Below are positions 15,247 through 57,069 of a stretch of DNA of 64,000 nt, piece by piece. The position numbers and the translations under genes were made by a program. Each line of letters begins with the position of its first letter. Positions within the stretch are counted from its first letter, which is position 1. Source of the DNA: a virus. The notes beneath the pieces are model-generated. The model did no database searches. It saw nothing but the letters and a program-made list of their open reading frames with translations, and had not been told where the DNA came from. The DNA lies in IMG/VR virus record IMGVR_UViG_3300023082_000001, positions 25,413-89,412 of that record; one strand, given 5' to 3'.

Positions 15247-16869
15247 ATGGCTAATTTAACTGAGAGTCCTATTTATGAACCGGGGATTTTCCAACTAGAG
15301 AAATCTACCCCACCATTGGGTGGTGCTCCAGTTATTGATAATGGTGTTCCAAGTGCAGGTCACGCTAACGCTCAAGGGCTTCAGCTGGCTAATCGGACAG
15401 CTTATCTGAAGCAAGAAATTGATTCGCTTGATACACGAACTGCCGCTGTTGAACAAAGCACAACTGATCTTGATGCGCGTGTTGATTCAGCTGAGGCGGA
15501 CATTGACAATCTTCAAACAAGAGCTGGTTATGGATCTGTAAATGTAAAGTCACTTGGTGCAATGGGCTCACCAACAGATGATTCTTCAATATTTCAAGCA
15601 GCGGTAGATTCCCTTCCTGCATTGGGTGGTACAATTGAAGTCCCTCCCGGAACTTACACAATTAATACAAAACCCACAGAGGGAAGTAAGTCTATTCTGT
15701 GGCTGATTAGTCCCGGCGCCAGCTTCTCTGGTACGGGAACTGGCGAGGGTAAGTTTCCTTATATGTTGAGCAACCCTGCTCAGATGGCAGTGGGGCCTTA
15801 CATTCGATCACACTCAGCATTAGCCTCCACTAATAGTAACGGTGGCATCGCAGCTCTTAATGCCGAAATGATCCAACCTAGCTCTTATTCTGGACAAAGC
15901 GTTGCGGCTTATTTTGGTGCTATCGGTTCAAGCCCTCAAACAACTGCAAATGTTTGGGCAATGAACACACTTGTTAGAGCAGAGTCAGGCGCTGCTGGCA
16001 CATATCAGTGTATTGAAGTTGACGTAGATAATTTTGCATCAAGCGCTCTTGTAAAAGGTATTAGTATTTCAGGAGCTGGTACTGTTAGCCCCAAGGTAGC
16101 TCTGGAAATTGTAAGAGCTAACAACACACCTTGGCTTTATGGTATAGACGCCCTTAACTGTGTAACGGGCGTCAGAGTTAGGGCTTCGACACAAACAACG
16201 TGTGGTGTGATTGTGGGAGCACCAGCAGTTAATACAGGTGTTGTTTTCACTGGTCAACAACTGGCTAATGCTGGGGAAGGTCTGATGTTGCAGAGGTTTA
16301 CTAACACCTCCCCAACTGGTAACTTTATTCGTTGTGTAAATGCTGATAATACAGCAAGTCTGTTCACTGTAGGTATAAACGGGGATTTAGTGGCGGCTTC
16401 GATTGTTTCAGGGGCTATTGTAAGGGTTGGTTCACCAACGCAAACGACTAGTGCTGCAATTTCGTCAAAACAACTTGCTAATAACCAAGACAACATTGTA
16501 CTTCAGCGTTTTACTGACACATCCCCTACAGGTAGTTTTCTAAGGGGTGTTAACGCTGCAAACAGTGCTGTTCTGTTTACCCTCGGTGTAGACGGAGGAT
16601 TTAGCACCGTGGCATCTATTTCAGCAAACACTGGTATTACAACTTCTACAGGAAACATTACAGCATCATCTGGTTATGTTCGTGGTAGTGTGCTAGAGGC
16701 AACAGGGCCAGTAACTGCTTCAGCCGCAGGGTCCATCAGATTTTCTGCTAGTACAGCAACAACTGTTGGAGCAGCAGGTGGTGCATCTGCTTTACCGGCA
16801 ACTCCTGTCAAATATCTGGTTGTCAATCAGGACGGGGTTAACTATAAAATACCTCTGTACACGGCATAA
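15247..16869 (+). CDS. Tail fibre / spike protein with pectate-lyase-like segment
   Basis: 540 residues from ATG 15247, 6 bases after AAAGG; ATG 15241 is too close. The N-terminus (residues 1-60) resembles fibre anchoring segments and is followed by a short coiled coil (LDTRTAAVEQSTTDLDARVDSAEADIDNL). Residues about 98-140 (VNVKSLGAMGSPTDDSSIFQAAVDSL..GGTIEVPPGTY) are the usual opening of a right-handed beta-helix. Two tandem copies of a roughly 65-residue unit (QLAN...LQRFT-TSPTG-F-R-VNA) follow at 16206-16615. Probably receptor binding. Confidence 0.78.
   Translation: MANLTESPIYEPGIFQLEKSTPPLGGAPVIDNGVPSAGHANAQGLQLANRTAYLKQEIDSLDTRTAAVEQSTTDLDARVDSAEADIDNLQTRAGYGSVNVKSLGAMGSPTDDSSIFQAAVDSLPALGGTIEVPPGTYTINTKPTEGSKSILWLISPGASFSGTGTGEGKFPYMLSNPAQMAVGPYIRSHSALASTNSNGGIAALNAEMIQPSSYSGQSVAAYFGAIGSSPQTTANVWAMNTLVRAESGAAGTYQCIEVDVDNFASSALVKGISISGAGTVSPKVALEIVRANNTPWLYGIDALNCVTGVRVRASTQTTCGVIVGAPAVNTGVVFTGQQLANAGEGLMLQRFTNTSPTGNFIRCVNADNTASLFTVGINGDLVAASIVSGAIVRVGSPTQTTSAAISSKQLANNQDNIVLQRFTDTSPTGSFLRGVNAANSAVLFTLGVDGGFSTVASISANTGITTSTGNITASSGYVRGSVLEATGPVTASAAGSIRFSASTATTVGAAGGASALPATPVKYLVVNQDGVNYKIPLYTA
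16206..16615 (+). repeat. Tandem protein-level repeat in tail fibre gene
   Basis: Two units of about 65 codons. Both contain V-VG-P, QLAN, LQRFT-TSPTG-F-R-VNA, LFT-G-(N/D)G. They have diverged at DNA level, so the duplication is old; fibre repeats of this sort usually stack as structural turns of the shaft. Confidence 0.6.
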
Positions 16870-31809: not shown

Positions 31810-32125
31810 CTTCATAAATCATCGCCTCATTATATTGACCAATACGCTTTAGGTAATCTGTGTAAGGTTCGTTAGGCCATTGGGCTGGTTTGTTAAAAGA
31901 AAGGTTGTGTTCCCAATCTGAATCTGGGTAACGATTACCCCCACCAGCACCCATACCCGGTGATGTTCGACCAGAATACGCAACAGCTCCATTTGTTCCG
32001 TGTTGTTGAGTCTGCGAAGCAGCGTACCATTTAAGCTGATTGACTTCTGTGCGCAGCTCTTTCAATTCCCTATCCAGCTCAATCCACTTCTGATACAGAT
32101 TTGTAATGTCAAAATCAGTTGCCAT
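31796..32125 (-). CDS. Hypothetical coiled-coil protein
   Basis: 109 residues. N-terminal coiled coil (NLYQKWIELDRELKELRTEVNQL), then a Gly/Ser-rich linker and an acidic aromatic C-terminus (NEPYTDYLKRIGQYNEAMIYED). Overlaps the HNH nuclease gene by 11 bases. Unknown. Confidence 0.65.
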   Translation of the reverse strand: MATDFDITNLYQKWIELDRELKELRTEVNQLKWYAASQTQQHGTNGAVAYSGRTSPGMGAGGGNRYPDSDWEHNLSFNKPAQWPNEPYTDYLKRIGQYNEAMIYEDDSK

Positions 32126-34256: not shown

Positions 34257-34943
34257 TCAAAATGGCAAACTTTCGTCCAGACCATCATCCTCTGGTTCAG
34301 TCTGTGGTGCTGGCGTATGAACCTCTTTCTCATCAGCAACAACTTTAACATCAGCCTTTTTCACTTTGTAGCTGCCCAACACATCATCCACTACTTCATC
34401 AGACGAACTCTTACCTTCATAAGCGATGTGCTCAACTACTTGAACAGTATCCAGTGTCACAGTCAGTTGGCCTTCAGGGTTACGGTAGCCAAACAGTTTC
34501 AGAGTGCAGACTGAGCCGTTGCCAATGTCCTGTGTAAACGCTTGACCTTCTTTGTCAATGACATTCACAGTCATTGGATTACCTTTCTTACTGAACTCAG
34601 GCTTAGCCAGACCAAAACCATACATACCTTCTACAACATCATAGTTGGTCTTACCTTCCTCAACTTGCGAAGACAAGGGATATTTAACCCGACGTGGTGG
34701 CTTAGTTGTCTTGTCCTTACCGACCAGAGCAAAGCCTTTATTGAGCATGACCTCATCAAGCAATTTGTCCTTTGTTGCCTCATCCACAAACGCTGTCAGA
34801 CTGAACTCTTTGTCTGTGCTTTGGTACTTGGTCTTTGGAGTATGTACAGCAGCATAGAATACAGGAGCATTCAGTACATATACGTTAAAGGTTTCCAGAG
34901 TGCCGGACTTAGGAAGCTGCTTTACAATTACAGAAGTAGTCAT
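34257..34943 (-). CDS. Single-stranded DNA-binding protein
   Basis: 228 residues. An OB-like N-terminal domain (VYVLNAPVFYAAVHTPKTKYQS..EFSLTAFVDEATKDKLLDEV, YGFGLAKPEFSK) and an acidic tail ending DDGLDESLPF, the hallmark of phage SSBs that recruit replication proteins. Upstream of the exonuclease and downstream of the polymerase. Likely coats ssDNA at the fork. Confidence 0.78.
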   Translation of the reverse strand: MTTSVIVKQLPKSGTLETFNVYVLNAPVFYAAVHTPKTKYQSTDKEFSLTAFVDEATKDKLLDEVMLNKGFALVGKDKTTKPPRRVKYPLSSQVEEGKTNYDVVEGMYGFGLAKPEFSKKGNPMTVNVIDKEGQAFTQDIGNGSVCTLKLFGYRNPEGQLTVTLDTVQVVEHIAYEGKSSSDEVVDDVLGSYKVKKADVKVVADEKEVHTPAPQTEPEDDGLDESLPF

Positions 34944-46473: not shown

Positions 46474-46520
46474 AGCCCACAGTATTAAATAGAAATTATT
46501 GTCTATGCTGTGGGCTTTTT
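46474..46520 (+). terminator. Terminator after polymerase-like gene
   Basis: AGCCCACAG (46474-46482) pairs with CTGTGGGCT (46508-46516) across a 25-base AT-rich loop, then TTTTTCTTT. Long loop but nine paired bases. Confidence 0.75.
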
Positions 46521-46532
46521 CTTTGGCATAAT
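46504..46532 (+). promoter_or_regulatory. Possible early promoter on the terminator's right arm
   Basis: CATAAT (46527-46532), 17 bases downstream of TATGCT (46504-46509, poor -35). The spacer is the terminator's second arm and T-tract, as in the elements at 53540 and 54726. Leader CGAAACGAAACATAC (with AAACGAAACA at 46543-46552) matches the early leader. Confidence 0.5.
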
Positions 46533-46576
46533 CATTCCATCGAAACGAAACATACAAATGTAATTGGAGAGATGAG

Positions 46577-47726: not shown

Positions 47727-48448
47727 GCAAATATTCCGAATTGGTTGGCCTGCTTGAAGACTCTGGAGTTTTACAGCTTGAGGATGATTGGGCTGTCGAA
47801 ATTCAAAGTTTAATTAAAAGCCGATCACGGTTCGCCGCCTCACCTGTGCCGCCTGCTGGCGATGTGGAAGTGCTACCAGAACGCAGAAACGATCATATCC
47901 ATCTTGATGCTTCAATGAATGCTAGAGCGGTTGGATTTAATGAGTGTTTGGATAAGTGCGTGCCAATTTTCAACCGCCTGACCGCCGAGCGTGACACGGC
48001 TATCAAGGCTGCGACATTGGGCGCTGAGAACCTGAACAAAGCACTGCAAACAGCGGATAGCTTGCGAGCAGAGAACGAACGGCTCAAGAAGATCACTAGA
48101 TTTGAGGACGCCGTGGCTTGCGTTTTCGACAACTTAAAGTTTGTAGCCGCAAATACAGGTAGTAAAGAATGGGATGACCGGCTCGAAGATTTGGCAGAGG
48201 AGGTCATCGAGTACGCGCCAGAATACAAAAAACAATGGAAAGACATTTGCGCCCTGCAATCCGAACTGACCAAGGCGCGGGAGTTGGCGAAAAAAGCCTA
48301 CCACGCCGGATGTCGCGAGGAGTCTAGGGTTTATTTAGACCAAATCCTCGGCCATCAATCAGCACCAACCGATAAGGGTGACAAATGCTCGGACGGTGGA
48401 ACGTGTGGTCTAGGCGGCTTCTGCACCAACTGTCACAACCTACCTTAG
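47723..48448 (+). CDS. Ea22-like coiled-coil protein, GC-rich
   Basis: 241 residues. Long coiled coil (ERDTAIKAATLGAENLNKALQTADSLRAENERLKK) and GFNECLDKCVPIFNRLTAERD resemble Ea22-like and similar regulator-free proteins of Pseudomonas phages and prophages. It ends with CSDGGTCGLGGFCTNCHNLP (metal knuckle). GC content and codons (CGC, GCC, GAG, CTG) differ from all neighbours, suggesting recent transfer. Function unknown. Confidence 0.6.
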   Translation: MSKYSELVGLLEDSGVLQLEDDWAVEIQSLIKSRSRFAASPVPPAGDVEVLPERRNDHIHLDASMNARAVGFNECLDKCVPIFNRLTAERDTAIKAATLGAENLNKALQTADSLRAENERLKKITRFEDAVACVFDNLKFVAANTGSKEWDDRLEDLAEEVIEYAPEYKKQWKDICALQSELTKARELAKKAYHAGCREESRVYLDQILGHQSAPTDKGDKCSDGGTCGLGGFCTNCHNLP

Positions 48449-53114: not shown

Positions 53115-53522
53115 ATGAGTCTGGCATTAATTGTATACTTAATCGCTGTTATTCCAAAAATTGGAGTTGCTGCTTGGGTTATTCTTGTATTAGTAGGAAT
53201 TCTGTACTTTGTTATGACAATTTCAAGCAGCGTAGATCTTGATGTCTATGGGGGTTATGGGGAAGAACATTCCTCAGTTAAAAAGGCACGCAGCACAAGA
53301 AAGTTCATGCGTAATAAGATTTGGATTCCTTTTACACTTTTAATTGTTGCTGTGGTTGTGCCATCTAAAGAAACACTTTACACAATGGTGGCTGCATATG
53401 GTGTTGAAAAACTTGTAGATAACCCCGTAGCTCAAGACTTGGCTAGTGATGGTGTGGATGTCCTCAAGCAGCTGATGGCTAAAGCTAAACGTGAGCTAAC
53501 TGAAGACACGCCTAAGAAATAA
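53115..53522 (+). CDS. Early membrane protein
   Basis: 135 residues after AAAGGAG. Two or three transmembrane helices (about 4-36 and 72-90) around a basic loop (SSVKKARSTRKFMRNKIWIP). C-terminus charged (LKQLMAKAKRELTEDTPKK). Could act at the host membrane, for example in exclusion; unproven. Confidence 0.62.
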   Translation: MSLALIVYLIAVIPKIGVAAWVILVLVGILYFVMTISSSVDLDVYGGYGEEHSSVKKARSTRKFMRNKIWIPFTLLIVAVVVPSKETLYTMVAAYGVEKLVDNPVAQDLASDGVDVLKQLMAKAKRELTEDTPKK

Positions 53523-53539
53523 TTGAAAAAATATACCAA

Positions 53540-53575
53540 AGCCCTGTTGACTCAGGGCTTTTTCATGCCTATAAT
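53540..53575 (+). promoter_or_regulatory. Composite terminator-promoter
   Basis: AGCCCTG (53540-53546) pairs with CAGGGCT (53553-53559), T-tract 53559-53563. The 6-base loop TTGACT (53547-53552) is a -35 box; the right arm and T-tract form a 17-base spacer to TATAAT (53570-53575). One DNA element thus ends the upstream operon and starts the next. Leader contains AACGAAACAG. Confidence 0.75.
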
Positions 53576-53614
53576 TCCCCTAACGAAACAGATTAAAGCT
53601 TTAGGAGACAGGTC

Positions 53615-54175
53615 ATGAGCCGCATGTATATAGTCAATCATTGGAATGACGCTGCTGCCTACTCAGGTGAGCAGATTGGTGACCGCCTGAAAGATTCACA
53701 GGCTTTGCATTTCAATCGTGACGGCAGTGCTAACGTTAACCTCTACTCTGAAGAGACAGCACAGGCTAAGAAGAAAACTTCTATTCCTCTCAAGAATCGC
53801 ATTTTGCCACAGGTTGTACGTGTTGAAAAACTCACTGCCCAAATGGTTGAACTGTGCGATGAGTACAAACAAGGTCTCCACACAAAGGAAGACTACAGCT
53901 TGCTTCTGTCAGTGATTTCTGCCAAACGCGCTCGTGCTGAAGAATTGCTCGCTAAAGCTGTGTCGGTTAAGGCTCCGTTTGAGCAAGAAGAATCTTCGGA
54001 AGACGAAACCAGTGCACAACACTCCCCACAGGTTAACTCGCCTATTACTCCTGAAAAACCCGTACCAATAGCCGTAAATTGTGTGAATAAAGCTTGCAAC
54101 TCAGCATTGAAGGATGCTATGATTCTAATCACAGGGGCAGCAAGCTTGCTAGCTCTGGTTAAATTCTTTTTCTGA
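53615..54175 (+). CDS. Early tail-anchored membrane protein
   Basis: 186 residues. Cytoplasmic N-terminal part with basic region (EETAQAKKKTSIPLKNRI) and helix (VRVEKLTAQMVELCDEYKQGLHTKEDYSLLLSVISAKRARAEELLAKAV), an acidic/Pro linker, and a C-terminal hydrophobic segment (MILITGAASLLALVKFFF) ending at the terminus. First gene after a composite promoter. Unknown. Confidence 0.62.
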   Translation: MSRMYIVNHWNDAAAYSGEQIGDRLKDSQALHFNRDGSANVNLYSEETAQAKKKTSIPLKNRILPQVVRVEKLTAQMVELCDEYKQGLHTKEDYSLLLSVISAKRARAEELLAKAVSVKAPFEQEESSEDETSAQHSPQVNSPITPEKPVPIAVNCVNKACNSALKDAMILITGAASLLALVKFFF

Positions 54176-54185
54176 GGATACAGGA

Positions 54186-54359
54186 ATGTTTCAATTAGAC
54201 GTTATGCGATTTCTTGTAATGCAGTTTGACAACCAAACCGACTCTATGATTCAAATTAGTCCATCACTAAGCCTAGATAATGCAAGAAAGTTCATCGCAA
54301 ATAGTCGGGATTGTGAGCCAACTTTAGAGTTCTATTTAATTGCAGTATTGGAGGAATAA
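54186..54359 (+). CDS. Small early protein
   Basis: 57 residues, CAGGA upstream. FQLDVMRFLVMQFDNQTDSMIQISPSLSLDNARKFI. Unknown. Confidence 0.55.
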   Translation: MFQLDVMRFLVMQFDNQTDSMIQISPSLSLDNARKFIANSRDCEPTLEFYLIAVLEE

Positions 54360-54361
54360 CC

Positions 54362-54487
54362 ATGAACACAGCATACAACACATTTGCACAAGCAATGAAC
54401 AGTATTGAACACTTCCACTCTGAAGGTTATAAGAGTTTCAAATTGTTTAAAGAAAATCGTATGTGGTATATTGAGGTGAAAGCATGA
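54362..54487 (+). CDS. Small early protein
   Basis: 41 residues: YNTFAQAMNSIEHFHSEGYKSFKLFKENRMWYIEV. Two bases after the previous stop and ATGA-coupled to the next gene. Unknown. Confidence 0.55.
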   Translation: MNTAYNTFAQAMNSIEHFHSEGYKSFKLFKENRMWYIEVKA

Positions 54488-54642
54488 TCACTCTAGAAGA
54501 GTACATTAGGCTTCGTAAAGCTGAGCTTGAAAGCTTTTACGGCCATTGGCTAGCACAACATGACGATGACCCAGACAATTGGCCTATGCAGATGAATTAT
54601 CCTGATTGGGCTGAACAGGAAATGATGATCAACGACGTTTAA
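54484..54642 (+). CDS. Small acidic early protein
   Basis: 52 residues with many Asp/Glu and Trp (QHDDDPDNWPMQMNYPDWAEQE). Unknown. Confidence 0.55.
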   Translation: MITLEEYIRLRKAELESFYGHWLAQHDDDPDNWPMQMNYPDWAEQEMMINDV

Positions 54643-54725
54643 CTACCTCTGCCAACAACATGACACAACAACGCGTTCTCCAAACACACAATCAGCGACA
54701 TGAAAATAATTTGAAAATTCTTTCT

Positions 54726-54762
54726 AAACCCTCTTGATTGAGGGTTTCTTTTCGCCTATAAT
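54726..54762 (+). promoter_or_regulatory. Composite terminator-promoter
   Basis: AAACCCTC (54726-54733) pairs with GAGGGTTT (54740-54747). The loop TTGATT (54734-54739) is the -35, with 17 bases to TATAAT (54757-54762). Same layout as at 53540 with a different stem sequence, so the design is kept while bases change. Confidence 0.75.
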
Positions 54763-54802: not shown

Positions 54803-54982
54803 ATGACTGGTCAACTTTTTTGCGTTTTTTACAGCACACGCCACAATGCCAAGATGATGGTAAGTGTCGGTAAGCTGTGTGTGTTTATTCACGCACATGA
54901 TGGCGTAGAAGCTTGTGTCAAGGCCATTAGCCTGTTGTCTGAGGATGATGTGTTGATTGAGGGCGTTGAAAAGATTTGCTGA
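54803..54982 (+). CDS. Small early protein
   Basis: 59 residues from ATG 54803 (CTGGAG upstream). TGQLFCVFYSTRHNAKMMVSVGKLCVFIHAHDGVEACVKAISLL. Single-gene operon between two promoters. Unknown. Confidence 0.6.
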   Translation: MTGQLFCVFYSTRHNAKMMVSVGKLCVFIHAHDGVEACVKAISLLSEDDVLIEGVEKIC

Positions 54983-57034: not shown

Positions 57035-57069
57035 AGCCCACGTTGAGTGGGCTTAGCTTTGCCTGTAAT
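57035..57069 (+). promoter_or_regulatory. Terminator with degenerate promoter layout
   Basis: AGCCCAC (57035-57041) pairs with GTGGGCT (57047-57053), loop GTTGA. TGTAAT at 57064-57069 sits where the -10 of a composite element would be, but the spacing from TTGAGT is only 15. Probably acts as a terminator; the following promoter at 57133 is stronger. Confidence 0.55.

Follow-up and report, generated by a model that had tools for sequence, protein, structure and literature searches.

The DNA analysed here (hereafter the window) is a stretch of 64,000 nucleotides, bases 25413-89412 of a viral record of 89,412 bases. It carries genes for tail sheath, baseplate, ribonucleotide reductase, primase/helicase and a family A DNA polymerase, the last being about 58% identical to the polymerase of the Pseudomonas phages PPSC2 and phiPsa374. 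Based on this gene set and the polymerase identity, we take the phage to be contractile-tailed and akin to Otagovirus/Pakpunavirus. A megablast of the region 44-64 kb of the window against named phages gave no match.

Two composite elements and the genes around them

Within this region, a gene at 53115-53522, the last of an operon that would be terminated by the predicted hairpin 1, is followed on the plus strand by a gene of 186 aa at 53615-54175, the first of the next operon. Between the stop of the former and the latter lies element 1. The operon continues with three further small ORFs (54186-54359, 54362-54487 and 54484-54642, plus strand), read from the sequence and presumably genes. Element 2 lies after these four genes and before an ORF of 59 aa at 54803-54982 (plus strand), likewise read from the sequence, for which a Pfam search returned no match. 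The positions of the two elements thus delimit a four-gene unit from about 53582 to about 54750, which fits the proposal of the sequence-only reading that such elements bound small operons.

Element 1 (53538-53575) reads AAAGCCCTG-TTGACT-CAGGGCTTT-ttcatgcc-TATAAT on the plus strand. Its terminator-type hairpin (53538-53561) has a 9-bp stem, AAAGCCCTG/CAGGGCTTT, followed by a T-rich tract (53559-53563 in the sequence) that falls within the promoter spacer. The loop of this hairpin (53547-53552) is the -35 box TTGACT, and the -10 box TATAAT (53570-53575) comes 17 bases past it. The promoter, with an 11/12 match, has the top score in the 44-64 kb region, with a predicted start at about 53582 and a AACGAAACAG leader; the RNA hairpin has a minimum free energy of -14.4 kcal/mol (z -4.57). 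Element 2 (54726-54762, plus strand) reads AAACCCTC-TTGATT-GAGGGTTT-cttttcgcc-TATAAT, with a hairpin at 54726-54747 (8-bp stem AAACCCTC/GAGGGTTT, -11.8 kcal/mol, z -3.65), the -35 box TTGATT as its loop (54734-54739), the -10 box at 54757-54762 after a spacer of 17, and a predicted start at about 54769. Its promoter matches at 10/12, TTGATT being only 4/6 as a -35 box. In both elements the 17-base spacer is made of the right stem arm and the T-tract; the two main sites are exactly as first read. Both combine a GC-rich RNA hairpin and a U-tract directly after it, as in intrinsic (Rho-independent) terminators, with TTGACA-like and TATAAT-like boxes within 16-18 bp, as in sigma-70-type promoters. 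The start codons at 53615 and 54803 lie more than 50 bases beyond the ends of the respective hairpins.

Such composites are hardly expected by chance. Against the two observed in the window, 150 dinucleotide shuffles gave a mean of 0.013, with no composite in 148 shuffles and one in the other two. As a class, the terminator-like hairpins in the 44-64 kb region are in excess (32 against 13.7 expected), while the promoter-like matches (61 against 52.5 in shuffles) show no clear class excess.

Two more sites, 46504-46532 and 57035-57069, had been proposed as weaker copies, and neither qualifies as a composite. The stretch 46474-46541 (plus strand) consists of a terminator hairpin, then CATAAT and the leader CGAAACGAAAC. 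The hairpin at 46504-46532 has a long loop of about 20-25 nt with no -35 box inside, and at a spacing of 17 from CATAAT stands the hexamer TATGCT, only 2/6 to TTGACA; the -10-like box and the leader are nevertheless present 3' of it. The site at 57035-57069 (plus strand) is a degenerate look-alike with a GTTGA-loop hairpin: it has TTGA in the loop, but a spacer of 15 and a -10 box TGTAAT without the key A, and it is probably not an active composite. An ordinary promoter, TTGACC-16-TAGAAT, is found about 70 bases 3' of it.

Some recurring sequences around these signals are also noted here. A (CGA)AACGAAACA leader motif occurs shortly 3' of predicted early promoters in the window (46541, 53582, 56599 and 57169) and is common to related phages, being present also in L061, L526, L528 and L531. 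Terminators with ordinary loops, followed by a TTTTGCCTAAAAT-like sequence, are seen at 48447 and 59515 of the window, in RB49 (L082, minus strand, 8739) and in PAK_P1 (L080, 3710); at these sites a -10-like box follows at a similar spacing, and the loop has no -35 box.

Distribution in related phages and beyond

The check proposed in the sequence-only reading, a search for the pattern in related phages, finds the layout but hardly the exact string. Across 29 related records TTGAYT-N17-TATAAT gave just two hits, neither of them a hairpin; the search was therefore made by structure. In 17 related records (1.15 Mb), ten promoters with a match of 10/12 or better have a terminator loop as their centre, each with a spacer of 17, against at most four promoters in each other 6-nt bin around the terminator loops and about zero at the loop in shuffles. 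A composite stands upstream of orthologs of 53615-54175 in seven relatives (L057, L061, L526, L527, L528, L529 and L531) besides the window. The stems at these orthologous sites include AGGCCC/GGGCCT, AAGGGCC/GGCCCTT, AAGCGCC/GGCGCTT, AGGCCG/CGGCCT, AAAAGGCC/GGCCTTTT and AAAGGCCC/GGGCCTTT. In several relatives the loop is only a weak -35 box (TTGCGG, TTGTGG), and several orthologs of this gene are without an upstream composite. The database scan with an ortholog protein alignment used three orthologs, an alignment of eight being too divergent.

Among the named phages, the hairpin/promoter pair was not found in Felix O1, PAK_P1 has hairpin/promoter overlaps in shifted registers only, and PPSC2 has overlaps that are mostly shifted. 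Shifted-register overlaps are located in PPSC2 (L077) at 31829, 36447 and 40407 and in PAK_P1 (L076) at 34553; in some of these the loop or the right arm contains the -10 box, and two are located at the beginning of the DNA polymerase gene or immediately ahead of it.

A nested arrangement is found for the orthologous promoter in four further records (L523, L524, L525, which equals L060, and L532, the last with its hairpin read by eye). The -35/-10 pair is kept there and the hairpin is longer: its left arm or loop takes in the -10 box and the predicted start, and its right arm and the T-tract are placed immediately ahead of the start codon. Judged from this geometry, only read-through RNA could form the hairpin. 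A scan for the nested class gave 10 cases against 1.7 in shuffles. One of the ten belongs to another part of the present phage's record (L055, about 2145 on the minus strand), with a fold z of -4.6, and another to RB49 (L074, about 3201 on the minus strand).

The layout was then considered in IMG/VR, with hairpins of the form AGCCC-TTGAC-GGGCT plus a T-tract and a -10 box sought at 16-18 bases; all figures for TTGAC loops are proportions among the matches listed, not censuses. A -10 box is present in 25 of 104 such hairpins among the matches listed (17 of 88 after clustering), against 3 of 80 for the composition-matched control loop CAGTT and 0 of 34 for GACTT. The clustered proportion among the matches listed thus exceeds that of the scrambled loops taken together (17/88 against 3/114, p=8e-5), and at other offsets the TTGAC-loop hairpins listed show no comparable enrichment. 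This enrichment over scrambled loops indicates that the layout has arisen repeatedly. A second stem family in IMG/VR has a -10 box in 7 of 28, and bacterial genomes show a weaker peak (8 of 117, seven of the eight at exactly 17). The named phages Astolliot and Milchi have one composite each in the 45 kb examined, located between genes about 70 bp apart. That of the Pseudomonas phage Astolliot is at 15426 of OM982621, minus strand, and the predicted -10 boxes in these phages read TAGAAT/TAGACT. IMG/VR also contains a recurring composite family with a spacer of 18 (L137, L144, L161, L173, L196, L221, L223, L225 and L241) and a conserved downstream block like ATGCGATATATCTTATA.

Covariation of the stems

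For the assignment of registers, the hairpins were anchored on TTG and a spacing of 17. The stems are mostly in registers 2, 4 or 5 and the distance between the -35 and -10 boxes is 17 throughout, showing that it is the promoter that sets the frame. The covariation sets comprise 10 sequences for register 2 and 12 for register 5 (one divergent member left out), and the pooled stems come in part from orthologous sites and in part from other sites. The cells are paired in 92.9% (register 2) and 94.0% (register 5), and the pairs changed on both sides are 6/7 (registers 2 and 5). The covariation scores are 0.75 against 0.22 shuffled for register 2, and 0.85 against 0.28 shuffled for register 5. None of 500 shuffles attains the score of either register, a count not to be taken as a probability because the pooled stems are partly from related phages. 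In both registers the signal drops sharply once the pairing partner is slid.

Since the layout is kept at the same gene in relatives whose stems have changed by paired substitutions, we conclude that it is under selection. The early suggestion of such selection, made from the differing stems of the two elements, now has support from three sides: the different stems found at orthologous sites, the compensatory changes, and the database-wide enrichment against scrambled-loop controls.

A probable shared terminator and promoter between tandem operons

The anatomy, the enrichment, the covariation and the conservation at orthologous sites belong to the sequences themselves. What best explains them, and what we hold to be quite probable, is a terminator and a promoter sharing their bases, which would insulate small operons in minimal DNA. 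Each element would act as a dual-purpose signal between two tandem operons. At the RNA level, the end of the upstream transcript is predicted to fold as a GC-rich hairpin with a U-tract, leading to termination. At the DNA level, the loop TTGACT or TTGATT, the 17 bases of right arm and T-tract, and TATAAT would serve as a sigma-70-type promoter for the next operon, presumably read by the host sigma-70 holoenzyme, and the genes served are presumably early. The new transcript would lack the hairpin, because its start lies past it. Selection would hold the promoter letters and spacing together with the pairing of the flanks, leaving the stem letters to drift in compensated pairs. If termination and initiation do occur at the elements, as their form suggests, the outcome would be insulation and an independent start in less than 40 bp.

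By this geometry, termination would leave the active site about 20 bp or less from the next start, so that occlusion of the promoter and a direct reuse of the polymerase may each be possible. The terminating polymerase may thus stay on the DNA and restart at the promoter it covers, coupling successive operons rather than merely insulating them. Bacterial RNA polymerase often remains on DNA after intrinsic termination and may reinitiate nearby (PMC6978322, PMC6978380, PMC11347151). However, the reported reach of a recycling polymerase extends to promoters as far as about 1000 bp off, so the exact overlap is not needed for such a hand-off, and we regard this explanation as possible but rather doubtful. 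We are equally hesitant about its broader form, in which a -35 box in a terminator loop is a recurrent minimal gene punctuation of several independent origins that places the terminating polymerase on the next promoter and couples operons by direct enzyme reuse.

The remaining explanations are less likely still. Only one function may be real, the element being an ordinary terminator with a chance promoter match or a promoter with an accidental inverted repeat. That the promoter-like matches of the 44-64 kb region as a class barely exceed the shuffles agrees with this, but the loop-centred enrichment, the constant spacing, the scrambled-loop controls and the covariation make it improbable. It is even less probable that the elements are merely a few copies of one ancestral cassette whose layout persists without selection: GCCTATAAT-type flanks and the AACGAAACA leader are indeed common to the window elements and some relatives, yet the stems change in a compensatory manner at orthologous sites, and the same layout is present in other phages and in bacteria. 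The symmetry centred on the -35 box might also mark not an RNA terminator but an operator to which a phage regulator binds on the DNA. To this we give the least credit, since the stems vary in sequence from copy to copy and from ortholog to ortholog with the pairing kept, and a T-tract follows on the transcribed strand.

The proposed shared terminator-promoter may be compared with known systems. In the T4-type phages RB49 and phi1, small early operons have between them PeSL cassettes (early promoter plus stem-loop), in which a stem-loop terminator is joined to a strong promoter of sigma-70-like type. The window elements are alike in physically joining a stem-loop terminator to a promoter, judged by sequence, and are presumably early too. 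They differ from the PeSL of RB49 in not having the tandem order of hairpin and T-tract followed by a complete promoter. In the RB49 tandem units as measured, the hairpin and T-tract come first: counted from the loop start, the -35 box begins 28-45 nt further downstream, and the spacer to the -10 box is 16-18. None of the RB49 stretches examined has a -35 box in the loop. PeSL are repeated similar copies whose modules recombine and shuffle; the window has only two composite copies, with different stems. Given the tandem RB49 units, the window elements would work like PeSL cassettes but are not members by geometry.

The leaders of the T4 genes e, soc, 49 and I-TevI form inhibitory hairpins whose 5' arm contains a late promoter (PMC3014915). 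There too a promoter overlaps a hairpin, and read-through and locally started RNA behave differently; the system is very like the nested class at the orthologous sites, which recalls in particular gene e, where the promoter within the 5' arm spares local transcripts (PMC3014915). Unlike in the window elements, the hairpin in T4 conceals the ribosome site, with no description of it as a terminator; the promoter is a late one, and the loop has no -35 box (PMC3014915). Post-termination recycling, established for bacterial RNA polymerase, resembles the elements in the restart close to a terminator, and differs from them in being a general property of the enzyme that extends to about 1000 bp, with no fixed sequence element (PMC6978322, PMC6978380, PMC11347151). 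In the literature searched, whose coverage is partial, we came upon no account of a terminator whose loop holds a -35 box, and only to that extent does the layout appear novel.

On the whole, one stretch of about 37 bp meets an RNA-pairing code and a DNA-recognition code at once, in a manner traceable by covariation at orthologous sites. This calls for caution with annotation tools in which promoters and terminators are kept apart as separate intervals. The element would be a ready-made compact insulator-plus-promoter, and may offer a natural template for asking whether a terminated RNA polymerase restarts at a promoter that it already covers.
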